Virus record (IMG/VR): IMGVR_UViG_3300005606_000004
Coordinates: 1 to 26,398 of that record
Source of the DNA: a virus
Strand: one strand, 5' to 3'
Length of the DNA: 26,398 nucleotides
Part shown: piece after piece, positions 870-25,437 of the stretch
Numbering within the stretch: the first letter of the stretch is position 1
Layout: the number at the start of each line of letters is the position of its first letter
Notes under the pieces: model-generated
The model's input: the letters and a program-made list of their open reading frames with translations, nothing else
What the model was told of the DNA's origin: nothing
The model's database searches: none
Program-made: the position numbers and the translations under genes

Positions 870-2456
870 TTAGACTGTGTGATTAGTAGCATAAGTACTA
901 TCACTGTGAGAAGTTAATCCCTTATATTTAACAGTCATTTCATCAGCTGCAGTTATATCTGAGCCATGAGCTGCAAATTCAACAGATACTGAAATCAAGT
1001 CTGCGACTTCAATAGCTGGAACTTGGAAATGCGCTCTTGGAAGGTCAAATTCTACGACTGGTGTGTCAGAAGAACCTCCTCCCATAAATAAACTCATATC
1101 AAAAGAGTTTCTAACTAAGTCAGTTGCTGCAGATAAATCAGCTAGTAATTGGTTTGAACCATTACCTGAACCACTTGAACCTGTAGTGTTTAAGTACATA
1201 GTTAAGCTTCCACTAATTTGTCTTGCACCTGAGAAAGAACCAATTGGTTTATCAATAACCCCTAAAGTTTCAGGAGTTACATAAGTGATGTTATTTGCTA
1301 TAGTTATTGAACCACCTGTGATTGCAATATCATAAGTTTTTGCATCTAGTCCACCACTTGCTGCTCCACTTCCTTGTTCTAAAGTTGAAAGTGTTAGCGT
1401 TGATAATTTATTTCTTAAATAGTCTGCATCATCAGGACCAGTAGTATCTACATAATTAAAAGCTTCTGCATTATTAATTGTAGAATTAGCTGAATATGCT
1501 CCACCAGTATCTCCTGAGACTGAACTATAAGCTGTATTAGGGTCTTCCATTGGAGTAGTAATTTGGTCAATAGTAGTTGAGTTACCAGACCATGCAATTG
1601 TTGCTATTCCATCTATAGAGAAGTCTATTTCTGCTTGGTTTACTTGACATTCATTTAGTCTGTAAGTTGTATTTTCCAAAGCAAAGAAAATTGAGAGTTT
1701 TAATAACTCGTGGTGTTCTGACCTTGCAAAACTAACATCTGCATCAGTTGAATCTACTGTTACTGCTGCAGCACTTGTTCCGCTTAGTGCACCACCTGTA
1801 ATGTCTTTACCTGCAATAGCTGCCCATAGTATGTTTTCAACCATACCCATGTCGTTTTCTGAGCCATTACTATTTGCTCCATGTTTGAAAGGTCTTACAT
1901 AAGTTGAGAAAGACCATTCTGCAGGAGGTAAAGAGTCATTAAATCTTTTCTGTCCTCTGTTTGGAGTTGCTCCAGCTTCGTTGATTACAACATCAGTTGC
2001 ATCACTTCCTTGCGAGAAGCTGTAACCATCTAACACACCTACTCTGAAAGTGTTGGCATTTGTGCCATTACCTTTAAATAAGCCAGTTCCTATTCTGCTA
2101 CCATCTACTGTGGTTGTTCCTGCGATTGTTGCTACTGTTACAACAAGTCCAGTTCCTGAACCTGTAGAATCACTTGCATCACCTTGAGTCAATGTTTCAC
2201 TTGCTGCAAATCCGCTTCCTCTGAAGTTATTTGGTATGTTTACTCCTGTAACACCACCACCACTTACTGCAGAAACAATAACTTTCGCATTGATTCCACT
2301 TCCTGAAGTATCATTTGCATTAAAAGATATAACATCGCCCACCGCATGACCAGAACCCGCAGTAGTAACAGTAACAGTCTTGATGCCGCCTGTAGCGCCT
2401 ACACCATTTACTGAACTGACATATACCTTGGTATTTCTTGATAGATTAAGTGCCAT
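870..2456 (-). CDS. Putative phage tail tube protein with Gly/Ser-rich insert
   Basis: This 528-residue protein begins MALNLSRNTKVYVSSV, an opening I associate with tail tube proteins of marine tailed phages. Residues about 15-125 form a Gly/Ser-rich insert with repeated GSG turns (GSGHAVGD, GSGINAKV, GSGFAAS, GSGTGLVV), like decorating beta-domains in phage structural proteins. The rest is Thr/Ser/Asn-rich and beta-prone, with no signal peptide. A Shine-Dalgarno sequence (TAGGAG) precedes the ATG. It follows the tail terminator gene, the usual order in siphoviruses. At 528 residues it is long for a tube protein, because of the insert. Tube identity rests on position and general character. 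Another major virion protein is possible. Confidence 0.6.
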   Translation of the reverse strand: MALNLSRNTKVYVSSVNGVGATGGIKTVTVTTAGSGHAVGDVISFNANDTSGSGINAKVIVSAVSGGGVTGVNIPNNFRGSGFAASETLTQGDASDSTGSGTGLVVTVATIAGTTTVDGSRIGTGLFKGNGTNANTFRVGVLDGYSFSQGSDATDVVINEAGATPNRGQKRFNDSLPPAEWSFSTYVRPFKHGANSNGSENDMGMVENILWAAIAGKDITGGALSGTSAAAVTVDSTDADVSFARSEHHELLKLSIFFALENTTYRLNECQVNQAEIDFSIDGIATIAWSGNSTTIDQITTPMEDPNTAYSSVSGDTGGAYSANSTINNAEAFNYVDTTGPDDADYLRNKLSTLTLSTLEQGSGAASGGLDAKTYDIAITGGSITIANNITYVTPETLGVIDKPIGSFSGARQISGSLTMYLNTTGSSGSGNGSNQLLADLSAATDLVRNSFDMSLFMGGGSSDTPVVEFDLPRAHFQVPAIEVADLISVSVEFAAHGSDITAADEMTVKYKGLTSHSDSTYATNHTV

Positions 2457-9104: not shown

Positions 9105-10403
9105 TTAAAAACTTGTCGCTGTAGTTTCAAACGTATACAAAGCATATCTCATAGCATCAGCCATATGCGATGCTTGATTATGTTTTGGCTTTTCTTTTAA
9201 TAAATTAGGGTTGGGGTCCCACTGATATTGGTCTAGTGACATTAAAGATTCTCTACATTTTTGGTCTACAATAAGTTTTTTATTATCAACAATTCCTGCA
9301 ACATGACCAATACCATCTAATACTGATTTCTTTGCATTTATAGTACTTATATCATAATTTTGTGCAAAATCAAATCTTGTTTGTGCTGCTGCTGAATCAA
9401 TATAAATATAATCTATCTCCCACTTATCTATGAGTTTTTGTATTTCTATTGCATGCTGTTCAGTAGTTCTTTCACTATCTAAATACTCATCAACTAAGTA
9501 AAATTTTTCTTCGTCCCAATCATATGCCATAACACAAAAAGCTGTAGGGTCTTTATAGCCAACATCAAGACCTGCAAAAACATCCATTCGTGAAGTATCA
9601 AAATTAGACAAGTCTGCTATACATTCTTCATGATTAAATGACCAAACTTGACCTTCAAATACATTAAAGTCTGCCATATATTCTTGATTAAATTCTGCTT
9701 GTGACATTCCTTTTTGTGCTTCTATAATATCTGATTCAGATACTCTTGGGTTTTCATGCCAAGTTGCTTTTATAGAACACCACTCAGGAAACTCATCAGT
9801 AAATCCTCTATAATAAAATTCTGCAAAGTAATTATTTCTACCTCTAGGAGTTGAAATAAATATTGCTTTGGAATTATCTTTGTCTAGTGTAGGTCGTAGT
9901 GCAACATTGAAAGCATCTCTACCGTCTGTAAGTGCTGCCTCATCAAATATAATTAAATCATAACTTCTACCTACTACTGAGTCTACTTGATTTATTGAAC
10001 CCATACGAATTGTAGAACCATTTGAAAGTTCAATAACTTTATCTTTTGCATTATCTCTTACCATTTCTAAATCAAAATGTTTAATTAGTTGTCTTTGTAA
10101 ATCAAAAGATATTTGAGATAGAGAATAATTAGGAGACATTAATAAAACATGACTATTAGGTACTAAACATACTAACTGTCCAATTATATTTGATATATAA
10201 GTTTTACCTTGTCTACGGGCTACTGCCGCACACACAAATCTATATTTAGGATTACTTACTGCATTGATAAGTGCAGTTTGGGAAGTATTAGGAGTAACTC
10301 CTAGTAACTGCAGGTAGGATTCTATAGGAAGTTTGATGAATCTGTCGTCATCAAACTTCATTAGATAATCGGGGATTATATCTTTTCTACTAACTTCAAT
10401 CAA
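9105..10403 (-). CDS. terL: Terminase large subunit
   Basis: A 432-residue packaging motor. The ATPase half has a Walker A-like ARRQGKT (residues 62-68), Walker B LIIFDEA (150-156, catalytic Glu155) and a coupling motif ISTPRGR (183-189). The RNase H-like nuclease half has AGLDVGYKD (Asp280), YIYIDSAAA (Asp336) and HMADAMRYAL (Asp416), the usual metal-binding acidic triad. Length is normal. Its start overlaps the upstream 81-residue gene by four bases (ATGA type), so translation is probably coupled. The putative small subunit is unusually far away, about 10 kb upstream in the same direction, unless the 81-residue neighbour fills that role. Confidence 0.93.
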   Translation of the reverse strand: MIEVSRKDIIPDYLMKFDDDRFIKLPIESYLQLLGVTPNTSQTALINAVSNPKYRFVCAAVARRQGKTYISNIIGQLVCLVPNSHVLLMSPNYSLSQISFDLQRQLIKHFDLEMVRDNAKDKVIELSNGSTIRMGSINQVDSVVGRSYDLIIFDEAALTDGRDAFNVALRPTLDKDNSKAIFISTPRGRNNYFAEFYYRGFTDEFPEWCSIKATWHENPRVSESDIIEAQKGMSQAEFNQEYMADFNVFEGQVWSFNHEECIADLSNFDTSRMDVFAGLDVGYKDPTAFCVMAYDWDEEKFYLVDEYLDSERTTEQHAIEIQKLIDKWEIDYIYIDSAAAQTRFDFAQNYDISTINAKKSVLDGIGHVAGIVDNKKLIVDQKCRESLMSLDQYQWDPNPNLLKEKPKHNQASHMADAMRYALYTFETTATSF

Positions 10404-12737: not shown

Positions 12738-12777
12738 ATTATACCAAAAATATAGTTGATTGTCAAGACCTATTTTT
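12738..12777 (-). promoter_or_regulatory. Consensus sigma-70 promoter for the holin-like/terminase unit
   Basis: Read leftwards: AAAAATA, then TTGACA, 17 bases, TATAAT, all consensus. It overlaps the last codons of the adenylate cyclase gene and leaves a leader of about 40 bases before the holin-like gene. It would drive the mini-protein cassette and terL. Confidence 0.88.
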
Positions 12778-14542
12778 CAATGGTATAGATTTTAACTGGC
12801 TCAGATTTTCCTTTTACAGTTATCTCGTCTAAAAATTTATAAACAAATCCTTCAATCCTACTATACTCAGATATAATTAAATCAACATTATACTCCTTAC
12901 ATTGACTCTCTAACCTCGCAGCAAGATTGACAGCATCACCAAGAACACTATAATCGAAACGGCTACTGGAGCCAAAATTACCAACCACACACGGTCCCGT
13001 ATTAATTCCAGCTCCTGTTTTAATTTCATCAAGAGCTTCTTCTCTAAGTTGTTCATTTAATTCTCTTAGTGCTTTTCTCATTTCTAGTGCGCACTCTGTG
13101 GCTTTTCTTTCTTGTTCCTCACAATCTAGTGGAGCGTTCCAAAAAGCCATAATGCAATCGCCCATATATTTATCTATTGTGCCTCCATGTTTTAATATTA
13201 TCTCAGTTTGATTATCTAAAAAACGATTAATCAGAGTAGTAAGTCCTTGTGGATTCGACTGGTATTTTTCAGAGATGGGAGTAAATCCTCTGATGTCAGA
13301 AAAAAGAAATGTCATACGTTTTGTCACCCCACCCAATCTCAGTAACTTTGGATTATCTTGAAGTTTTTTAACCAGAGATGGGCTAACATAGGTGCCAAAT
13401 TGTTGCGAAATTCTGCGACGAAGTATAAATTGCTGGACGAAATTACGGAATGTAACAATACTCCAATAAAGAAAGCAGATTATAATTATGGCAGAAACGT
13501 CAAATAAGTAGGAAGACTGAAACAGATTCCAGGTAGTATATAATAAACCTGCAATACTAAGTAGTAAAGTTGGAACTGATAATATAATTGAATATGATGT
13601 AATTAGTAGTAAAATTATTAGTCCAACTGCAGTTCCCATCTCTGCAACTTGACCCCACTCAGGGGTTGATGGACTTGTACCTTGTATTAAATTATGTAGT
13701 AAATTTGCTTGAAGTTCGTGAGGATATTTCAAACCTGCAGGAGTAGGAACAGGATTAACTATTCCTTCAGCTGTAACTCCAAAAATTACAAAAGGTGCGT
13801 CAATAGGATTTTTCATAAACTCAGAAGCACTTTGTCTGTAAAAATTAACATTGTAATTTAACCAGACTTGAGCATTTGAGTCAGTATACATCGGGGGGTA
13901 GTTTGGGACTCTAACCCATTCTATACCCCCGTCTGTAGTCTTGATTTGATAGCTGGGGTCACCTACACCTACCCTTAGCATTTCAAGAGCAAAAGATGGA
14001 TATATTTTATCTTGACTTCCTACGGCGAGAGGTATACGTCTTACGACGCCGTCTATTTCGGGTGCGGTGTTTATTAGACCTACGCCTGTTGATAGATGTT
14101 CTTGTCGTAAAATGCCGGGATAACGATATAGCCATAGATGCGGATCACCTCCTATTTGAGCAGTACCAACATGTGGTCCTCCTTCATTGGCTTGTGTCGA
14201 AGCTACGAAAGCCAAGACAGCGGGGGATTTACGAAGTGCCGATGCTAATGTAGTATCGTGCTCCTTCCCTCTTATATCTGGGTCAGGCATCAAAACTGTG
14301 ATACCTGCTACACCAGAAGTTCTAGAAATTGCTTGAGCATAAAATGTGCGTGGTAGTGGATAACCTTTATATCCTTTTATAATTTCTTCATCTATGTCTA
14401 CTAATAAAATATTTTCATTTTGAATAGGCTCTTGACTCATCATTAGCCAATCAAAACTTTTTAATTCTAAAAGCTGAAAAGGATATGGATTCCAAAAGTA
14501 TAGTGCTAAAACTAGAATAGCACTACCTAGCCTTACTACCAT
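12770..14542 (-). CDS. CHASE2-domain adenylate cyclase (class III)
   Basis: A 590-residue membrane enzyme predicted to make cAMP from ATP. An N-terminal membrane segment (residues 4-19) leads to an extracytoplasmic CHASE2-like sensor (about 25-290; ILLVDIDEE, PLPRTFYAQ, HELQANLLHNLI). Three membrane segments follow (about 303-370), then the catalytic domain. Key residues are present: metal-binding Asp416 (LFSDIRGF) and Asp462 (KYMGD), adenine-selecting Lys458 and Asp536 (LGDAVNLAARLES), and transition-state Asn539 and Arg543. Lys plus Asp favours ATP over GTP. It lies downstream of curli-like and FecR genes and overlaps the preceding basic protein gene by seven bases. A full-length sensor cyclase is very unusual on a phage. 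Confidence 0.9.
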   Translation of the reverse strand: MVVRLGSAILVLALYFWNPYPFQLLELKSFDWLMMSQEPIQNENILLVDIDEEIIKGYKGYPLPRTFYAQAISRTSGVAGITVLMPDPDIRGKEHDTTLASALRKSPAVLAFVASTQANEGGPHVGTAQIGGDPHLWLYRYPGILRQEHLSTGVGLINTAPEIDGVVRRIPLAVGSQDKIYPSFALEMLRVGVGDPSYQIKTTDGGIEWVRVPNYPPMYTDSNAQVWLNYNVNFYRQSASEFMKNPIDAPFVIFGVTAEGIVNPVPTPAGLKYPHELQANLLHNLIQGTSPSTPEWGQVAEMGTAVGLIILLLITSYSIILSVPTLLLSIAGLLYTTWNLFQSSYLFDVSAIIIICFLYWSIVTFRNFVQQFILRRRISQQFGTYVSPSLVKKLQDNPKLLRLGGVTKRMTFLFSDIRGFTPISEKYQSNPQGLTTLINRFLDNQTEIILKHGGTIDKYMGDCIMAFWNAPLDCEEQERKATECALEMRKALRELNEQLREEALDEIKTGAGINTGPCVVGNFGSSSRFDYSVLGDAVNLAARLESQCKEYNVDLIISEYSRIEGFVYKFLDEITVKGKSEPVKIYTIEK

Positions 14543-14841
14543 TTAACTTTATCTGCCCAATATGCAGCCGACATTCTTCCTTTCGCTATATTTCTTCTAT
14601 GTCGTGCTTTGAAAGACTTTCGTTTTGCTTTCATTCTTGCAGACTCACCTTTTTTAGGTTTACCCGCAGTTTTAGCTCCTTGTTGTCCAAAGCGAATAGT
14701 CTTAATTTTATCTCCAACTTTTGCAACAACTATATGTGATTTAGTTGGGTGGCTAGGTGTTCTTTTTGGTTTATTAAAACCACTAACGCCTGCTCTTGCG
14801 AGTCTTGGGTCTCGTTTTTTTCGTCTTGTTTTTCTTGGCAT
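14536..14841 (-). CDS. Basic phage protein with C-terminal SAAYWADKVKW
   Basis: A 101-residue basic protein: MPRKTRRKKRDPRLARAGVS, GFNKPKRTPSHPTKSHIVVA, KTIRFGQQGAKTAGKPKKGE, and a C-terminal helix ending MSAAYWADKVKW. I recall this domain order in small conserved proteins of marine phages with no known function. GGAGGG precedes the ATG. The gene starts 59 bases inside the end of the 113-residue gene, in another frame, and its stop overlaps the cyclase start. DNA binding is likely from its charge. Confidence 0.75.
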   Translation of the reverse strand: MPRKTRRKKRDPRLARAGVSGFNKPKRTPSHPTKSHIVVAKVGDKIKTIRFGQQGAKTAGKPKKGESARMKAKRKSFKARHRRNIAKGRMSAAYWADKVKW

Positions 14842-15124
14842 TGTTTGCCCTCCTTAAACTAGCTTTTCCTGCTCGGAATATAGAAGCTACAGTTTTCTTT
14901 CCCATAACTCTAGCTCTTTGCTCTCCTACTGTAAGTATTTGAATCTTACGAGCATATGATTTACGAACTCTTTTTACTTTTCTGACAGTTGCTCTAGCGT
15001 CTTTCATAGTAGCAAACTTAATCCTAACGGTATCTTTAGGATTCTCGTCAGTATATAATCTTCTTCCAGAACCTTTTGGTTTTTTACCTGTTCCTTTTCT
15101 TGGGTCTTTTTTTCTTTTTGCCAT
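14783..15124 (-). CDS. 113-residue basic protein
   Basis: Starts MAKRKKDPRKGTGKKPKGSG, then RRLYTDENPKDTVRIKFATMKDARATVRKVKRV, a plausible small alpha/beta unit, and ends in an Arg/Lys-rich tail (TKKTRPKTRKSRR). I prefer this ATG to one 29 codons earlier because the earlier region is coded by the 49-residue gene in another frame. It overlaps neighbours at both ends. Part of the upstream basic-protein trio (49, 113 and 101 residues). Function unknown. Confidence 0.6.
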   Translation of the reverse strand: MAKRKKDPRKGTGKKPKGSGRRLYTDENPKDTVRIKFATMKDARATVRKVKRVRKSYARKIQILTVGEQRARVMGKKTVASIFRAGKASLRRANNAKKNKTKKTRPKTRKSRR

Positions 15125-15233
15125 AACCTGATGCGTATATTGCTCTGCCTTGCTTTTCAGCTTCTTTTTTTGTTTTGTAAATCTTTCCAGACTTACCCCA
15201 TCTGTAACCACCTTTTACTTTTCTAACAGGCAT
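15084..15233 (-). CDS. 49-residue MPVRKVKGGYRWGKSGK mini-protein
   Basis: MPVRKVKGGYRWGKSGKIYK continues with TKKEAEKQGRAIYASGYGKKKKRPKK. I recognise this as a common tiny protein of marine phages, in which a GYRWG turn is followed by a KEAEKQGRAIYASG helix. Its function is not known to me. AGGAG lies upstream of the ATG. Its end overlaps the 113-residue gene by about 40 bases in another frame. It follows the 78-residue gene by 11 bases. Confidence 0.72.
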   Translation of the reverse strand: MPVRKVKGGYRWGKSGKIYKTKKEAEKQGRAIYASGYGKKKKRPKKRNR

Positions 15234-15244
15234 TTATATACTCC

Positions 15245-15481
15245 TTATTGCACTACTGTCCATTTTTGAATTGTATCTTCTTGTATATCTTCCCATTTTT
15301 GAAACTCTAAATCATAACATAAAAGTTTGTCTCCTGACTGCTTTCTTATATGGTTAGGTATTTTCATATACTTTTCACTTAAGGTATACTCTCTGCTTTT
15401 TATGTCACCACTACGTAGTGAACGAAACTCTATGTTTACTATATTAGTTTCTAATTTTCTTTTTAATTTTTCAATATCCAT
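15245..15481 (-). CDS. 78-residue phage protein, WED/W-type
   Basis: MDIEKLKRKLETNIVNIEFR leads to a beta-rich core (SLRSGDIKSREYTL) and an ending CYDLEFQKWEDIQEDTIQKW. The order (a helix, a strand motif with a charged turn, then a D-x-E-x3-W segment) resembles small proteins of T4-like phages that carry an R-x-M-x-C-T-L motif, though that motif is not conserved here. Its start overlaps the stop of the beta-barrel gene (TAATG). Role unknown. Confidence 0.6.
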   Translation of the reverse strand: MDIEKLKRKLETNIVNIEFRSLRSGDIKSREYTLSEKYMKIPNHIRKQSGDKLLCYDLEFQKWEDIQEDTIQKWTVVQ

Positions 15482-16113
15482 TATAGTTTAACTCCTAAAT
15501 TTATTGTAAATATATTTTTACTAGTTACATTATCAGTATAAGTATTATTTAATCCTACTGATATTTTATCTGATAGTTTATACATTAGACTTGTTGCATT
15601 TCTCAAGTACATATCTTTTCCAGACTCAAATAATAAATTATTAGTAATACTTAATTTTTCTGAAAAGTTATAAGATACTCCTAAATTATTTCTTACTATT
15701 AATTCACTGCCACTACTCTGTAGATATGCTAAAGACGTTTCATTACTAAGTTTCCAAGTTTCTGTATCTATAAATTTATATCCATATCCAGCACCAAGTA
15801 CAGTTCTTAAATCATAATCTTTTCTAAACTTATCATAATCAAATTGTGCTATACCTAATGCATAACTTTTTTCTGTTAATTCATACTGTTCTTTGTATTG
15901 AAAATATAAATCGTTTGTTTTTTCTTTTCCATCTGAAGTTTTGTATGTATATGTAGTGTCAAAATTACTTGTCCACTTTCCTCTATCAATTATATGTTTT
16001 ACTTTACCAGAAAAACTAACATCACTATCTATTAGTGTTAGTCCTATATTTGCTGTTGTGTCTGCAATTAGTATTGCTGTAAATAATGTTATTATTGTTA
16101 ATATATATTTCAT
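15481..16113 (-). CDS. Putative outer-membrane beta-barrel protein
   Basis: A 210-residue exported protein. A signal peptide (MKYILTIITLFTAILIADTT) precedes alternating polar/hydrophobic strands with aromatic girdle residues (LDTTYTYKTSDG-like hairpins, LGAGYGYKF, LGVSYNFSEKLSI, LMYKLSDKISVGL), ending in a C-terminal strand FTINLGVKL. This matches a small outer-membrane barrel of about 10-14 strands, DUF481-like in feel. Its start overlaps the stop of the curlin-like gene (ATGA), so it belongs to the curli-like cassette. It may anchor the secreted fibre or act as a separate outer-membrane component. No direct evidence of partner or ligand. Confidence 0.65.
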   Translation of the reverse strand: MKYILTIITLFTAILIADTTANIGLTLIDSDVSFSGKVKHIIDRGKWTSNFDTTYTYKTSDGKEKTNDLYFQYKEQYELTEKSYALGIAQFDYDKFRKDYDLRTVLGAGYGYKFIDTETWKLSNETSLAYLQSSGSELIVRNNLGVSYNFSEKLSITNNLLFESGKDMYLRNATSLMYKLSDKISVGLNNTYTDNVTSKNIFTINLGVKL

Positions 16114-16793
16114 TGTTGTGTTACCGATATATTACACCCACCAACTGTAACACAGTTTTGTGTTATTTGATAGGTTTTGTTAACTGCACTATCTTGAAGT
16201 AAACTTAAAGTGGTAGGTCTATTTCCTCTAAGAACCACTCGTGCATTGTGACTCCCACTCCCCTTTTGTGTTATGCTAGTATTAGAACTATCTGAAACAT
16301 TGTAGTAGTAAATATGAGAATAGTGACTTCCACTACCTTCTTGCCATATATCATGGTCTACACTATCTACATGAATATCTAAATAATGAGTATGAGTACC
16401 ATTTTGGTATATGTCTACCTGATTTGAGTTACCCCAAATATGTCCACCATAAGTAGCTCCATCATGTTGTTCTACATTCAAAGTATTTGATACACCATCA
16501 ACATCTCCACCCCAGCCTTTACCTGAGCCCCAATAAGGAACCCAAGATATTTTATTATTTGCTCCGTACTGTAGTAAATTAAATGTATTATTGTTATGGT
16601 CAGTAGAAAAACGTATTTCATTGTTAGTACCAACTTGTGAAGCATTTATATTTATATCATCTCCACCATTTACTTGTTCAATATGTACATGATTATCGCC
16701 TGCATACAGATTATCAGAGATTAATATTAAAAGGAAAAATAAACTCCACCCAGCTATTAAAAAGTATTTTGTATTTTTATCAAAATCCATCAT
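16110..16793 (-). CDS. Secreted curlin-like repeat protein, His-rich
   Basis: A 227-residue secreted protein with a signal peptide (cleavage likely near NLYA-GDN). The mature part has about eight degenerate repeats of curlin type with Gln in a fixed register followed by Gly/Asn turns: VHIEQVNGG, NINASQVGTNN, FNLLQYGANN, LNVEQHDGA, VDIYQNGTH, DIWQEGSGSH, TSITQKGSGSH, LSLLQDSAVN. CsgA/CsgB repeats have similar spaced Gln and Asn that stack in an amyloid beta-solenoid. About twelve His residues suggest metal or pH sensitivity. Its start overlaps the FecR-gene stop (ATGA). It is a candidate substrate of the CsgG pore encoded upstream. Amyloid formation is inferred. Confidence 0.65.
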   Translation of the reverse strand: MMDFDKNTKYFLIAGWSLFFLLILISDNLYAGDNHVHIEQVNGGDDININASQVGTNNEIRFSTDHNNNTFNLLQYGANNKISWVPYWGSGKGWGGDVDGVSNTLNVEQHDGATYGGHIWGNSNQVDIYQNGTHTHYLDIHVDSVDHDIWQEGSGSHYSHIYYYNVSDSSNTSITQKGSGSHNARVVLRGNRPTTLSLLQDSAVNKTYQITQNCVTVGGCNISVTQQ

Positions 16794-17914
16794 TGTACTT
16801 GTAATATTTCTATTATTGCTCCTGAGCCATCACCGACAGTTATTACACTTTCTTTTTGGTCGGTTTCAGTTCTCAAATAAACATTTGCATCTATTGGCAC
16901 TCTTATACTAATTATACCATCAACTTGTCTATAAAACCAAATATACCCTGTATCTTCAACAATAGTATTATATTGTGTATCAGGGTCTAATCCTGGTTTT
17001 GTTCCTTCTATTGTTACTGAATCAAATCCTTCAGCAGATGTTCCTTTTTGTCCTCTACTGAGTAAATCTGCTTCCTCTATAATTTCTAATAAGTCTTGTA
17101 AGAAGTCTACATCTAATAAATCAATGTCTAACTCTGAGAAACTCCAGTCTTCACTTTCTTCTAAGTAGTCTTTTTCTAATTCATTAAATTCCAAAAAGTC
17201 TGCTGTTAATATATTATTAGAATTATTTTCTGTTGCTCTTTCTTCTCTAATGGCTTCTACCTCTGCAGGTGGTGATACAATAAATAAATTATTAATTTGT
17301 GGAACTGTAATATTTTGTATCTCAACAGGTTTTGCAGGTGGGGACGATATTGTAGAAACCATTGTTGCTTGAAATGCTTTATCTAATACAACTTCACCTC
17401 CTTCATTCCAAACAGTTATCTCACCTGATGCATCTCCATTTTCGTCTGGAAGTAGTATTACTAAACTTCTTCCTAATTCATCTATAGTTGTTGTAAAATC
17501 AGTTCCACGAATACCTATAGTTGCAGTAGGAGTTTGAATATCAATATTTGCTTTATTCATTATCCCAATCTTACCAGAGGTGAATCTGGCGGTTCCCATT
17601 GCAAATTGCATAACCATTTTTGATTTGCTAGGATTTGGGTCATAGATTACTTCATCTATTAATACTCTACTATGCTCTGTAAGTCTTAAATTTGACTCAT
17701 CTAAAAATTCTATTGCTATTCTGCCATTACCTGTATTTAGTAAATCATATAACAATATATCGCTACCAACATCAGCAGATAACTCTTGGTCTTCTCGTGT
17801 CAGTACTCCAAACCCTGTCCTCTCTATGATATCACCTATCGGAGAGGATAGGGCTAGGGGTGATACGAGGCTAATCGCCAGTATCTTTTTGATTGATAGT
17901 AACTGTTGCATCAT
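16790..17914 (-). CDS. FecR-domain exported protein
   Basis: A 374-residue protein with an N-terminal signal sequence (hydrophobic to about residue 23) and a FecR domain at about 45-145: NTGNGRIAIEFLDESNLRLTEHSRVLID and TPTATIGIRGTDF are the usual hallmarks, quoted as motifs of residues 61-87 and 128-140. A long acidic segment follows (about 235-285, Glu/Asp/Leu-rich), then a C-terminal beta-rich part. FecR domains act in the periplasm as sensors or scaffolds, and in bacteria I recall them beside CHASE2 cyclases, matching the cyclase downstream here. The ATG lies 44 bases inside the preceding curlin gene, in another frame. It may pass a secretion state to the cyclase; this is inference. Confidence 0.8.
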   Translation of the reverse strand: MMQQLLSIKKILAISLVSPLALSSPIGDIIERTGFGVLTREDQELSADVGSDILLYDLLNTGNGRIAIEFLDESNLRLTEHSRVLIDEVIYDPNPSKSKMVMQFAMGTARFTSGKIGIMNKANIDIQTPTATIGIRGTDFTTTIDELGRSLVILLPDENGDASGEITVWNEGGEVVLDKAFQATMVSTISSPPAKPVEIQNITVPQINNLFIVSPPAEVEAIREERATENNSNNILTADFLEFNELEKDYLEESEDWSFSELDIDLLDVDFLQDLLEIIEEADLLSRGQKGTSAEGFDSVTIEGTKPGLDPDTQYNTIVEDTGYIWFYRQVDGIISIRVPIDANVYLRTETDQKESVITVGDGSGAIIEILQVQ

Positions 17915-18587
17915 CTGAAGTTATATCAATATTGATTATGCCTGAACAGCTTGATATACCTTGTGGGCATGTGCCAGATTGTTGAATTATATCAATGTCT
18001 CCGTCACTTCCTTCAAAGGTAGCTGTTAAAAGTTGGTCTGCATCTTTTTGCATAGTATTAAAATCATTATTACCACCAGTAATTGTCCAATCCCATTTAA
18101 CATTATCAGAATCAACAACTGTAGTAAATACATTTGAACTTCCTGTTAGTGTTAAATCGTAATTCAAAAACGTGGCAGATTGATTATATCCTATGTCTAC
18201 ATCCCATTGGTTAGAACTACCTGTAACTGCTAAATCTAAGTCTAGATTATCAGCTGCAGTATTATATCCAATGTTCCAATCATAAACATTGCTATCACCA
18301 GTAAAAACCATATCAATATTAGAATTACCTAATACTATTGGTCCGTACAACTGATTTGAGTTTCCAATTTGGTCTAAGTTAAAAGTTATGTTGCTTCCAG
18401 TAATTACCATGTCGCTCGCGCAAGCTCCACTAGATATACTACCACATAACTTATTACCATAACCAACTTGGTCAATTGTTAGGTTTAGCGTATCTCCAGA
18501 CTGTTCAAGAAATATTTCATTATCTGTAGAATCAGCTAATACCCATGTAGAAAAAGCGAGAACAAATAGTGCACATAATTTATTCAT
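17871..18587 (-). CDS. Secreted curlin-like repeat protein
   Basis: A 238-residue secreted protein. The start is the ATG after AAGGAG; MNKLCALFVLAFSTWVLA is a clear signal peptide. The mature part has repeats of curlin type: IFLEQSGDTL, LTIDQVGYGNKL, FNLDQIGNSNQL, then degenerate Asn/Asp/Thr-rich units with TGSSNVF, TGSSNQW, TGGNNDF turns, and a final IDIIQQSG and VTINQKD. Gln-x-Gly-x2-Asn spacing is as in CsgA/CsgB. It starts eight bases before the CsgG gene's stop, so it is coupled to its likely transporter. Nucleator and major-subunit roles cannot be told apart. Confidence 0.7.
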   Translation of the reverse strand: MNKLCALFVLAFSTWVLADSTDNEIFLEQSGDTLNLTIDQVGYGNKLCGSISSGACASDMVITGSNITFNLDQIGNSNQLYGPIVLGNSNIDMVFTGDSNVYDWNIGYNTAADNLDLDLAVTGSSNQWDVDIGYNQSATFLNYDLTLTGSSNVFTTVVDSDNVKWDWTITGGNNDFNTMQKDADQLLTATFEGSDGDIDIIQQSGTCPQGISSCSGIINIDITSDDATVTINQKDTGD

Positions 18588-19407
18588 CTTTCTCTCCTTG
18601 CTCTTGGATTTTCCAAAAGCCTCTGTCATCTCCTTGACGAATCAAGGCAACAACACCAGCCTCAATGGCTGAACGAACTGCTACGGTAACGCTTTCATTA
18701 TCAGCGACACCATCTTCTATCTCTATTAAATTTGTATCGGTATCAATAAATTTAAAAACATCAAATCCTGTACCAACAGATAGAATAGTTTTCTTTGTTT
18801 GAACATTTAGTAATATTTCGCCTGTAAGCACACTTATACCTCGCAAACTAATAGTAACTACATCTCGTCTATATGAAGTAGTTTGTCCTATACCTAATGC
18901 TCTTGCTCCTCTGCCTCCGCTTGTAATATTTGTATCATATCCTATGATACCTCCTTCTATTATTACACCTGCGAATAGTAAAGGTTGTAAATCTTTATTT
19001 TCGTCATGCTTTTCACGAGTACTTCTTACTATTTGTCTTTCTCTTACTAGATGGTCAATACCATGTCTTTCTACTACTCTAAACCACTTTCCACCTGCTG
19101 CTGTTTTTAGTGCATCTATTAATAATTCTGTACAACCTTGAGTTACTGCAGTACTAAAATCAGCCAAACTATCTCTTCTTTTTCTTTGTCCTGTTAAATC
19201 TTTACAGTTGTAAACTGCAACTATTGGCATAACTTCTGCTGGCGGAAACTCAAGTAATTCTTTATAAGTAGGTAATTTAATTATTTCTGGTTCTTCTATA
19301 CATTCACCATATACTTGCATTCCACTTTTAGTACAACTATCAGTCATAGAAGGAATACTTGCACAGCTAGCAAGTAGTAAAACTAGCAATGCTGCTAACA
19401 CTTTCAT
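18580..19407 (-). CDS. csgG: CsgG-like curli secretion pore lipoprotein
   Basis: A 275-residue lipoprotein with lipobox LASC and lipidated Cys15. The mature part is about 261 residues, close to E. coli CsgG. Family motifs are strong: VAVYNCKDLTGQ, DFSTAVTQGCTELLIDALK, WFRVVERHGIDHLVRERQI, VIIEGGIIGYDTN, SGGRGARALGIG, RDVVTISLRGISVLTGEIL, KTILSVGTGFDVFKFID and GVVALIRQGDDRGFW. CsgG forms a nonameric outer-membrane channel that exports curli subunits. Around the constriction loop, E. coli Tyr51/Asn55/Phe56 correspond to a charged RKRRDSLADF here, with Phe84 kept. Its start overlaps the stop of the CsgF-like gene by one base. The rest of the cassette supports a working pore. Confidence 0.93.
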   Translation of the reverse strand: MKVLAALLVLLLASCASIPSMTDSCTKSGMQVYGECIEEPEIIKLPTYKELLEFPPAEVMPIVAVYNCKDLTGQRKRRDSLADFSTAVTQGCTELLIDALKTAAGGKWFRVVERHGIDHLVRERQIVRSTREKHDENKDLQPLLFAGVIIEGGIIGYDTNITSGGRGARALGIGQTTSYRRDVVTISLRGISVLTGEILLNVQTKKTILSVGTGFDVFKFIDTDTNLIEIEDGVADNESVTVAVRSAIEAGVVALIRQGDDRGFWKIQEQGEKDE

Positions 19408-19868
19408 TAAAAACCTCCAGTACCTATAGGGATAACAATTTCAGTTGATGAACCATCTCCGTCTTGTATAGTCATTATTATAGCATCTACACAAATACCA
19501 TCTTCATCACATTGCTGTCCTCTAGTGTAACTTATTGTGTTTCCTTCGAGTGCAAAAGACCCAGTATAATTATTTTCTTCATTACCAAACATATTATCAA
19601 CTAGTTGTTTTGATAGTTGAGCATATATTCGACTTTCTAAATTTCTTACAAATTTTGCAAGAGTAGTATTTTCTCCTGCTCGTTGTTCTGCTTTTAATGC
19701 AGCTTCAACATCATCTTGTATTTTTTCTTTTCTTGATTTTTCTTGATTCTCAATAGTGAGATAGTGTGCAGATGTACCACTACCATTAAATGATGGGCTT
19801 TTAAATTCATGTACTATTTCGTCACTTAGTAGTATCGGACTTATTAGTATTAGTAATAGAAACCTCAT
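19407..19868 (-). CDS. csgF: CsgF-like curli assembly factor
   Basis: A 153-residue exported protein with a signal peptide (MRFLLLILISPILLS). The mature N-terminus DEIVHEFKSPSFNGSGTSAH keeps the F-x2-P-x-F-x-G pattern that in E. coli CsgF (F-R-H-P-N-F-G-G) inserts into the CsgG channel. Next come a helical neck (LAKFVRNLESRIYAQLSKQL) and a beta-rich C-terminal domain (TGSFALEGNTISYTRGQ, IIMTIQDGDG), longer than E. coli CsgF by about 20 residues. CsgF couples the pore to fibre nucleation. The gene is directly upstream of csgG with a GAGG ribosome site. It overlaps the preceding membrane protein gene by 47 bases in another frame. Confidence 0.85.
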   Translation of the reverse strand: MRFLLLILISPILLSDEIVHEFKSPSFNGSGTSAHYLTIENQEKSRKEKIQDDVEAALKAEQRAGENTTLAKFVRNLESRIYAQLSKQLVDNMFGNEENNYTGSFALEGNTISYTRGQQCDEDGICVDAIIMTIQDGDGSSTEIVIPIGTGGF

Positions 19869-20106
19869 TAAGTTTTCCCTCTTCTTTTAATTCTGTCACA
19901 GTATTTACTTTTTGCTGTAAACGAATCATATCTTGGTCTAGTAACCTGAGTTGGTCTGTAAGTCTTATAATTGTGGCTCTCATTGCAGCCAAAGCGGGGT
20001 TGATAGTTTTATTTATAGTTTGCCACACAAAAAATACAAAGTAGCCAAGACCAACTATCATAACTACCTCAAATCCAAAGGTTTCTATTAAATAGACTAT
20101 ATCCAC
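19822..20106 (-). CDS. Small membrane plus coiled-coil protein, upstream of CsgF
   Basis: A 94-residue protein with one N-terminal membrane segment (about 12-32, GFEVVMIVGLGYFVFFVWQT) and a long amphipathic helix after it (AMRATIIRLTDQLRLLDQDM). The start codon is GTG, overlapping the previous stop as TAGTG and preceded by GGAG. It resembles its upstream neighbour (98 residues) in layout, so they may be paralogues. The layout is also that of BhlA/UviB-type holin-like proteins. Being just ahead of csgF, it may serve lysis or the secretion cassette. Confidence 0.6.
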   Translation of the reverse strand: MDIVYLIETFGFEVVMIVGLGYFVFFVWQTINKTINPALAAMRATIIRLTDQLRLLDQDMIRLQQKVNTVTELKEEGKLNEVSITNTNKSDTTK

Positions 20107-20402
20107 TAATCTCTCCTAGCGTCTATCTTTCCGTCCTCTACGAAGTTTTGTGCTCTCGCAATTCTATCTAAATCAGGGGATAATCCTATGACACTAGATA
20201 CTGAAGTATCTATACGAATAATGTCATTGTTCATAACGGTTGCTCTAGTGATTAACATTTTTGAAATGCCTTCTATGGCTTTAATTTGCGCAACCAAACC
20301 ATTCATCTGTTGTTTCATGATGATGAAAATAAAATAAGCCATAGTGATAGCCCCAGCTATAGGTAGTCCTAATTCTGCGACTAATTTGAAAATTTCTCCC
20401 AT
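20106..20402 (-). CDS. Small membrane plus coiled-coil protein, paralogous to the next gene
   Basis: A 98-residue protein with one membrane segment (about 10-30, GLPIAGAITMAYFIFIIMKQ) and then a helical region (QMNGLVAQIKAIEGI) and a charged C-terminus ending DARRD. It shares with the following gene the order Gly-rich helix, YF-x-F-x2 membrane end, long helix. The stop overlaps the next GTG start. Holin-like or a pair of inner-membrane adaptors are both possible. Confidence 0.6.
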   Translation of the reverse strand: MGEIFKLVAELGLPIAGAITMAYFIFIIMKQQMNGLVAQIKAIEGISKMLITRATVMNNDIIRIDTSVSSVIGLSPDLDRIARAQNFVEDGKIDARRD

Positions 20403-21067: not shown

Positions 21068-22114
21068 TTAGTCATGACAAAAGCAACTAAAGTGTGTATC
21101 ATCTAATTCTGTTTCAAAATTTTTCTGCGATAAATCTACTAATTTTATGTAGTCTGGTCTATTTGTTCTAAACTTAGCTTTATGTTTAGTCTCCATGTCT
21201 GACCACCAGTTTGCTAACTGAGGTCTTTCTTTTAGTAAATTTAAAGTAGTTTGTGTACCTTTTAAAAAACATAAGTCACAGTTACCTGCAATTGTTTTTC
21301 CATTAATGCTAGGAAGTTTTAAATCAAAAGGACTATTTTTCCAGTACGCTAATATATCTTCATTAGTTACTTTTGCTTCATATAGTGGAGCAATATTTAT
21401 ATGTTTTTGTGAGTTTTTCTTTGAATCAGAAACTCGGCGGGGTTCATCATATCTCAAGCCTAAGGCTGAATACCATTCTTTATATCCTAGGCTTCTCATA
21501 AATCTATTAATAGTATTAATCTTAAGTTCTATAGTACAAGTTCTTTGGTGTAAGGAAGGTAACTTGCCCTTCTTTACTATAAGTTTTTCAAATGGTTCGC
21601 CATTTCTAGAAGCGGTTTCAAAAGACACTTCTTTACTTCTCCAGATTGGTGATGTAGTAGCAATATCTAGTTCCAACCAATGTATAGGTACATTCCATCT
21701 TTTTTCACACTCATGTACAAACTCTAAAGTTTCTTCTAGTTCTTTGCCTGTATTTGCAAAACAAACTATTATATCTTTTGGGAGTTTACCATTATATGCA
21801 TCTATAATCTTTTTTAGCATATATGCTGATGTACGGCCTCCTGAAAAAGATATAAGACTAGGTGTTGGTAACTTATATGATTTATCGTAAGTGTCTAAAT
21901 TTTTTGCTGCTGGCATATACTTTATCGGCCAGTACTCCATATTTGATGCCCATATTCTATCATATCTATACTCTTTAAATTTTTTACCATTTAGATGAAT
22001 AATCTGACCTTGTTTGTATGGTTGTTTAGTTTCTGGATTTAATAACAGTTTTTTAGTTTCACCAGCATCGTTAGTATGCCACCAAATATTATTTTCGTCT
22101 ACCCATTTACTCAT
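21068..22114 (-). CDS. PP-loop ATPase, PAPS-reductase-like, with C-terminal Cys cluster
   Basis: A 348-residue protein with the PP-loop SGGRTS (91-96), the usual ATP pyrophosphatase signature, followed by IIVCFANTGKELEETLEF and the Arg/Cys-bearing LHQRTCTIELK (around Cys193). Cys279-x2-Cys282 (CDLCFLKG) and a C-terminal SCFC (Cys344, Cys346) could, with Cys193, hold an iron-sulfur cluster. Family members include PAPS reductase, DndC (DNA phosphorothioation) and thiolation enzymes, so a role in sulfur or DNA/nucleotide modification is likely. No partner dnd genes are visible here. The N-terminal 75 residues (KWVDENNIWWHTNDAGETKK) are unrecognised. Its ATG sits six bases from the -10, so the transcript may be leaderless. 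Confidence 0.8.
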   Translation of the reverse strand: MSKWVDENNIWWHTNDAGETKKLLLNPETKQPYKQGQIIHLNGKKFKEYRYDRIWASNMEYWPIKYMPAAKNLDTYDKSYKLPTPSLISFSGGRTSAYMLKKIIDAYNGKLPKDIIVCFANTGKELEETLEFVHECEKRWNVPIHWLELDIATTSPIWRSKEVSFETASRNGEPFEKLIVKKGKLPSLHQRTCTIELKINTINRFMRSLGYKEWYSALGLRYDEPRRVSDSKKNSQKHINIAPLYEAKVTNEDILAYWKNSPFDLKLPSINGKTIAGNCDLCFLKGTQTTLNLLKERPQLANWWSDMETKHKAKFRTNRPDYIKLVDLSQKNFETELDDTHFSCFCHD

Positions 22115-24847: not shown

Positions 24848-24964
24848 ATGAAAACTTTAAGGACACGAAAAAAAGAAATAAATACTGAATTATATTTTTA
24901 TAGATATATGGCAATATTTATTATTGGTTTTTCTATTGGCTACTTTGTTGGTGGCTCAATATGA
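24848..24964 (+). CDS. 38-residue single-pass membrane peptide
   Basis: ATGAAAACTTTAAGGACACG begins a 38-residue frame MKTLRTRKKEINTELYFYRY followed by MAIFIIGFSIGYFVGGSI. The N-terminus is basic and the second half is one membrane helix with Gly-x3-Gly spacing. TTGGAG lies upstream. The stop overlaps the next ATG (ATGA), which supports its reality. Confidence 0.6.
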   Translation: MKTLRTRKKEINTELYFYRYMAIFIIGFSIGYFVGGSI

Positions 24965-25437
24965 AACCTTTACTAAGAAACTTTGATATTATTTTTTTAG
25001 ATATAGACGGAACTATTGTAAATTCTAATCATAGACAAAATGCAGAGGGAAAACCCAATGCACTTGACCTAGATTATTGGATTGAAAATTCTACTAGAGA
25101 AAATATTTTCAAAGATACTTTAATGGATAACCTTGTTTATTACATTAAGAAAAAATATCTGCATGGACATTATATTGTTCTTTGTACTGCTAGAACTCTA
25201 TCAGATAATGATATGGATTATTTGCATGATAAAGGAATACCTTATCATTCAATAATTAGCAGACCTGAGAATTGCACAACTCCAGACGCAGAATTTAAAT
25301 TTAATCAAATGAAAAAATTTCTTAATCTCAAATGGACTAAGAGAAAAAAGAAATTTCTTTATGACGATAAATGGGACAATTTGATTGCTGGTGTTAGGCT
25401 CGGAATTACTCCGAGATATGCACACGATTGGATTTAA
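24961..25437 (+). CDS. HAD-superfamily phosphatase
   Basis: A 158-residue soluble protein with HAD motif I FLDIDGT (nucleophile Asp14, Asp16), motif II around LCTAR (Thr76, Arg78), motif III around Lys113 and motif IV FLYDD (Asp135, Asp136), ending near residue 158. It is a small HAD phosphatase without a large cap. Phage members include the phosphatase part of polynucleotide kinase and nucleotidases, so a nucleotide or nucleic acid phosphate substrate is likely, though none is proved. There is no kinase domain. It is translationally coupled to the 38-residue gene. Confidence 0.82.
   Translation: MKPLLRNFDIIFLDIDGTIVNSNHRQNAEGKPNALDLDYWIENSTRENIFKDTLMDNLVYYIKKKYLHGHYIVLCTARTLSDNDMDYLHDKGIPYHSIISRPENCTTPDAEFKFNQMKKFLNLKWTKRKKKFLYDDKWDNLIAGVRLGITPRYAHDWI

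Follow-up and report, generated by a model that had tools for sequence, protein, structure and literature searches.

A curli secretion module with a FecR-domain protein and a CHASE2 adenylate cyclase in a T5-like marine siphovirus

The stretch of DNA examined here is the IMG/VR virus record IMGVR_UViG_3300005606_000004, a 26.4-kb fragment of a phage genome (positions 1 to 26,398; hereafter the window), in which the genes of a curli-type secretion system are encoded in one run with a FecR-domain protein and a class III adenylate cyclase bearing a CHASE2 sensor domain. With moderate confidence, this module is read as a type VIII secretion system (T8SS) of the pelagiphage kind carried by a T5-like siphovirus, in which FecR would signal to the CHASE2 cyclase, the two forming a cyclic AMP (cAMP) sensor that monitors curli export. 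The unit looks like the union of two ancestrally separate bacterial units, one for curli export and the other a FecR/CHASE2 sensor pair of the NsrA-CyaK kind, because FecR pairs with CHASE2 in bacteria and neither CsgG nor CsgF was found beside the cyclase at any of 80 bacterial CHASE2-cyclase loci.

According to the proposed mechanism, the phage curlins would be exported by the infected cell via CsgG/CsgF. The secreted FecR protein, presumably located in the periplasm, would engage the curlin, the pore or the nascent fibre through its curlin-like C-terminal strand, and its FecR domain would then alter the state of CHASE2 and hence the rate of cAMP synthesis. Curli genes abound in ocean phages and await an explanation; the neighbouring cyclase has been regarded as an accessory. 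The association of FecR with CHASE2, the curlin-like end of FecR and the occurrence of a near-core module in a third, T5-like lineage lead to a sensor circuit that can be tested.

The CHASE2 cyclase and its distribution among viruses

As proposed in the initial annotation, the cyclase and the FecR-domain protein are recognized by Pfam and lie in the same unit as the curli genes (Table 1). In the 590-residue cyclase, the matches to CHASE2 (E 9.9e-34) and to Guanylate_cyc (E 4.8e-21) lie far above the curated cut-offs and together cover nearly the full length. The anticipated membrane segments are represented by a hydrophobic N-terminus, read from the sequence, and by residues 299-358. The best solved relative is CyaB (3r5g, E 3e-38), and in the alignment with this structure DYSVLGDAVNLAARLES stands opposite DYTIIGREVNLASRLES. 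The catalytic set is present, comprising the metal-binding Asp416 and Asp462 together with Lys458, Ser532, Asn539 and Arg543. The earlier residue claims therefore hold for the two metal aspartates, Lys458, Asn539 and Arg543; the adenine-selecting role assigned to Asp536 was rejected, as this residue aligns with an Arg of CyaB and the base-selecting position is occupied by Ser532 (Thr in CyaB). The Lys/Ser pocket favours ATP, and the product is probably cAMP.

Asp416, Lys458, Asp462 and Arg543 are invariant in all 96 viral cyclases compared, and Asn539 is kept in 90 of them. Six sequences of the Melnitz group (L003, L069, L070, L076, L079 and L081) carry paired changes, with Asp at the 532 position and Ser at the 539 position, a combination that may affect activity or specificity. 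The ratio of nonsynonymous to synonymous substitution rates (dN/dS) is 0.13-0.24 for the closest pairs in the T5-like clade. The catalytic residues of the viral enzymes are conserved and, judging from these ratios, under purifying selection, and the cyclase is predicted to be active.

Relatives of the cyclase are encoded in 151 viral-contig stretches, and wherever the contig extends far enough, nearly all of them adjoin curli/FecR genes. The complete curli/FecR/cyclase module is present in HTVC008M, in Melnitz and in dozens of viral contigs, the records of the two named phages showing the same gene order and an annotated cyclase. The initial annotation had named missing co-occurrence of cyclase and curli-like genes in related phages as evidence against its proposal, and the two do co-occur. 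Its view that it is highly unusual for a phage to encode a sensor cyclase is contradicted by the same 151 stretches and by a publication of 2022 (PMC9599517).

Among T5-like contigs with at least 3.5 kb upstream of the gene for the large terminase subunit (TerL), the cyclase is found there in 24 of 25; since the sample consists of the 80 closest TerL relatives, this figure speaks for the lineage of the window, in which the cyclase is near-universal. In a T5-like relative (L085, positions 1196-2256; TerL 91%), the curlin, both basic genes and the genes downstream are kept with no cyclase between them, so that the gene is naturally missing at this site. A tree that also includes 45 bacterial cyclases, and that is unrooted and may be affected by long branches, places all 50 viral cyclases on one side of a branch with a support of 100, and the clade of the window (n = 12) is deeply split from the other viral sequences. 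Two contigs that are T5-like by TerL or by the small terminase subunit (L046 and L051) have cyclases inside the other viral clade, that is, outside the clade of the window, which suggests at least two entries of the cyclase into T5-like phages. In both contigs the cyclase is placed before the curli genes.

Curli components, the FecR protein and its bacterial counterparts

The T8SS parts found in the unit are the CsgG pore, CsgF and curlin-repeat subunits. CsgE is dispensable for curli formation in E. coli. No match to it was obtained among the Pfam-scanned open reading frames (ORFs) of the window, and pelagiphages have also been reported to be devoid of CsgE (PMC9599517). The placement of the FecR gene between two curlin-like genes, described in the initial annotation, is borne out. 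For the first of these, curA, the Q.G..N repeat columns are conserved in 13 viral homologues, and the homologue in HTVC008M is annotated as CsgB. The second, curB, is identified by profile matches to the solved curlins 8c50 (E 1.3e-14) and 8enq (E 6.5e-5), together with a weak match to the NCBIfam CsgA model (E 0.0014). A Foldseek search with the curB model returned nothing at E <= 0.001, so that its curlin identity rests on the sequence profile.

The 374-residue FecR protein (Pfam FecR, E 3.3e-9) consists of a hydrophobic N-terminus, a FecR fold spanning approximately residues 25-210, a disordered linker and a C-terminal beta domain. The AlphaFold2 model has a mean predicted local distance difference test (pLDDT) score of 68, with about 80 for the FecR part and low confidence in the linker. 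No outer-membrane barrel is present in the model; a separate DUF481 protein is encoded in the unit. The dN/dS of the closest pairs within the T5-like clade is 0.14-0.15. The small C-terminal domain is modelled with six strands, the last of which coincides with a short motif, [IVLFA]x[IVLFT]xQ (IxIxQ in the window), located close to the C-terminal end in 53 of 53 distinct viral FecR proteins. The same C-terminal motif is found in 33 of 36 second curlins and is absent from CsgG (0/42), CsgF (0/38) and bacterial FecR neighbours (0/32), the last being a weakened control because contig ends or stop-to-stop reading truncate some of these ORFs. Within the viral FecR proteins, internal positions show the pattern at a frequency of 4.2%. 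As many of the 44 extracted curA C-termini were misframed, only the in-frame ones were used.

This curlin-like end is an unexpected lead for a role in secretion sensing, and the terminal strand of FecR may contact the curlin or the pore. True homology of the C-terminal domain to curlins was rejected by profile-profile comparison, which aligned another region with a probability of 13%; the claim is thus confined to the motif of the terminal strand.

The pairing with CHASE2 is well documented in bacteria, in agreement with the initial annotation. Of 80 bacterial CHASE2-cyclase loci, 57 are flanked by 1.5 kb on either side, and 18 of these 57 have a FecR ORF no more than 200 bp from the cyclase. 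On pSymB of Sinorhizobium meliloti, the gene directly upstream of cyaK, overlapping its start, encodes a 1190-residue protein with a FecR domain (E 1.8e-15), tetratricopeptide repeats (TPRs) and a weak C-terminal barrel match. By place and size this gene is nsrA, whose product is an outer-membrane receptor genetically required for CyaK signalling (PMC7529298; PMC13001267). Furthermore, in Campylobacterota a FecR outer-membrane protein is encoded in clusters with CHASE2 cyclases (PMC9239204). Because of these three lines of evidence, the assignment of FecR to the CHASE2 cyclase, and not to iron control, is well supported, and this part of the circuit suggested in the initial annotation stands.

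The sensor, its output and alternative readings

Several observations weigh against a sensor that monitors curli export. The contacts among FecR, curlin and CHASE2 are putative, and FecR and the cyclase of the window belong to one unit yet are not adjacent; in contig L138 they are separated only by curB. Six viral cyclases have Ser in place of Asn539, and in contig L085 the cyclase is absent despite intact flanks. The motif shared by FecR and the curlins could be a convergent feature of a terminal beta strand, because the profile-profile comparison gives no FecR-curlin homology. Finally, a bacterial family of SAR11 type has no obvious cAMP receptor, which leaves the output step without a known target.

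This family of 147 genomes is called SAR11-type since one of its members exactly matches three 16S probe sequences that we take to be those of SAR11. Only 9 of the 147 genomes contain the cNMP_binding domain and only 3 have a class III cyclase, whereas the response regulator used as a positive control was found in 143; in a class-wide sample, cNMP_binding is present in 108 of 143. A phage-coded cAMP receptor was considered and rejected, as PF00027 gave no match in 17 phage records (two complete genomes, the rest mostly fragments); in both scans other receptor types were not searched. The reprogramming of the host by cAMP, as envisaged in the initial annotation, is not supported by these counts. 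The near-absence of cyclic nucleotide-binding proteins raises the question of what viral cAMP does in the SAR11-type family, and the answer would be relevant to cells infected by phages in the surface ocean. SAR11 as host of the window phage is itself suggested by relatives; no host link was found for this phage and no tRNA genes are present within the window. A bolder version of the sensor mechanism, which we regard as doubtful, is that the phage installs a fibre-secretion checkpoint, running from curlin-tagged FecR to the CHASE2 cyclase, in a host that has neither such a cyclase nor a recognizable receptor, and that the cAMP does not serve gene control of the CRP type.

The same counts bear on an alternative in which the cyclase is active and its product works without a CRP-type receptor, either by shifting the nucleotide or energy balance or as exported cAMP acting as a signal between cells or against competitors. 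The conserved active site and the lack of a cNMP-binding receptor in 138 of the 147 genomes, and in the 17 phage records, are in line with this proposal, although plain ATP consumption would call for neither a regulated sensor domain nor FecR as a conserved partner. The receptor scan is moreover limited to PF00027, and the host of the window phage is not known to be SAR11, so we consider this alternative unlikely.

The published proposal (PMC9599517) treats FecR as an iron or ferric-citrate regulator which, together with a histidine kinase and cAMP, would control T8SS expression, like CsgD and CRP-cAMP in enterobacteria. Here the FecR fold, periplasmic in the anti-sigma regulators of the FecR/PupR type, does match the cell-surface-signalling domain of PupR (6ovk, Z 15.4 over 136 residues). 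This reading loses ground because the phage protein lacks the cytoplasmic anti-sigma part of these regulators, having only about 24 hydrophobic residues before the FecR domain. In addition, no sigma factor is found among the annotated ORFs of the window, nor an extracytoplasmic function (ECF) sigma factor in the Pfam scan of the unit. The histidine-kinase label for two genes before csgF was also rejected: the 94- and 98-residue proteins at this position have no significant Pfam match and no kinase domain, although exactly which genes the paper meant is uncertain. Taking into account also the rarity of the cNMP-binding domain in the SAR11-type family and its absence from the 17 phage records, regulation of this kind appears improbable.

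For Melnitz, synteny and modelling led to the proposal that CsgG/CsgF form a gated pore timing lysis (PMC9004378); extended to the present unit, the pore would not export fibres and the cyclase would be part of the trigger. That argument assumed that curlins are absent, yet the window contains two curlin genes and Melnitz two annotated curlin-repeat genes, which makes a lysis pore quite improbable. A decaying, functionless passenger acquired with FecR, to which the single relative lacking the cyclase between intact flanks might point, is very hard to reconcile with a cyclase kept in 24 of 25 members of the lineage, under the low dN/dS given above and with invariant catalytic residues.

Gene unit, carrier phage and related modules

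The putative sensor genes and the curli genes form part of a run of 12 genes in the same direction, from position 20402 down to 12770. Neighbouring genes overlap at 10 of the 11 junctions and are 33 bp apart at the other one, an arrangement compatible with a single transcription unit. Cyclase, FecR, CsgG and CsgF each match existing PHROG families.

Table 1. Positions and assignments of the genes of the unit and of two lineage markers in the window
Feature	Position	Strand	Evidence
CHASE2 - transmembrane - class III adenylate cyclase, 590 aa	12770..14542	-	Pfam CHASE2 and Guanylate_cyc; CyaB 3r5g best solved relative
Small basic protein, 101 aa, phrog_7595	14536..14841	-	PHROG match
Small basic protein, 142 aa	14783..15211	-	Homologues at shifting positions in related contigs
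WYL_2-like small protein, 78 aa	15245..15481	-	Pfam WYL_2 E 0.013, weak, below cut-off
DUF481 outer-membrane-type protein, 210 aa	15481..16113	-	Pfam DUF481 E 1.4e-22
Second curlin-like subunit curB, 227 aa	16110..16793	-	Profile matches 8c50, 8enq; weak NCBIfam CsgA
Secreted FecR-domain protein, 374 aa	16790..17914	-	Pfam FecR; AlphaFold2 model vs PupR; C-terminal motif
First curlin-like subunit curA, 252 aa	17871..18629	-	Repeat columns; HTVC008M homologue annotated CsgB
CsgG, curli secretion pore	18580..19407	-	Pfam CsgG E 1.3e-47; E. coli CsgG structures E 3e-50
CsgF, curli pore partner	19407..19868	-	Pfam CsgF E 5.4e-13
94-aa protein, one hydrophobic N-terminal segment and hydrophilic tail	19822..20106	-	phrog_18771 E 9.5e-21; hydropathy
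98-aa paralogue of the 94-aa protein	20106..20402	-	phrog_18771 E 9.5e-23; Pfam none
TerL, T5-like	9105..10403	-	48-49% identity to Demerecviridae TerL; marks phage lineage
Major tail protein, pb6-related	870..2456	-	phrog_3575; marks phage lineage

The carrier is, on homology grounds, a marine T5-like siphovirus related to Demerecviridae. This assignment follows from TerL, from a portal with about 41% identity to T5-like phages and from a relative of T5 pb6, which is 33-36% identical to the major tail proteins of T5-like phages, together with the head-tail gene order: TerL, small gene, portal, small gene, protease/capsid, connectors and major tail protein follow each other as in Vibrio phage X1. 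A literature search found no T5-like phage with curli genes.

Wittmers et al. (2022) described T8SS modules that include FecR, a second curlin and an adenylate cyclase in T7-like and T4-like pelagiphages, and also their expression in ocean metatranscriptomes (PMC9599517). The module of the HTVC008M/HTVC023P type has the order CsgF-CsgG-curlin-FecR-curlin-cyclase, with one or two small proteins ahead, and a cyclase 36.5% identical to that of the window over 98%. In contrast to it, the present module is carried by a T5-like phage, its cyclase belongs to a separate deep clade, and extra DUF481, WYL_2-like and basic genes lie between curlin and cyclase. The curli region of the Methylophilales phage Melnitz is arranged in the same order and encodes a cyclase of CHASE2 type with 36.3% identity, in which Ser532 is replaced by Asp and Asn539 by Ser; the Melnitz paper does not discuss FecR or the cyclase (PMC9004378).

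Among bacterial systems, NsrA-CyaK of S. meliloti likewise combines a secreted or outer-membrane FecR-domain protein with a cyclase of CHASE2 and Guanylate_cyc domains. NsrA is genetically upstream of cAMP, whereas a requirement of the phage FecR for cAMP is putative; NsrA has TPRs and a C-terminal barrel in 1190 residues, while the phage protein has 374 and a curlin-like end, and cyaK has no adjoining curli genes. The Campylobacterota clusters resemble the phage unit in the company of cyclase and FecR outer-membrane protein, but include a phosphodiesterase and a TPR protein, neither of which was seen in the unit. The module is therefore known in kind. To our knowledge, the T5-like carrier lineage with its near-universal deep-clade cyclase is new, as are the conserved catalytic residues with Ser532, the assignment of FecR to CHASE2, the curlin-like tail of FecR and the near-absence of receptors in the SAR11-type family.

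The DUF481 gene, inserted after the second curlin, has no homologue among the fetched viral loci and was found only in the window among the contigs compared. The very basic small proteins encoded at 14536-15211 have homologues whose place in the interval from cyclase to TerL varies among related contigs, which suggests gene mobility in this stretch. Elsewhere in the window, a phosphoadenosine phosphosulfate (PAPS) reductase-like protein (21068-22114, Pfam E 1.7e-7) adjoins the small terminase gene, and a weak match to a HAD/PNKP-type phosphatase is located at 24961-25437 on the + strand.

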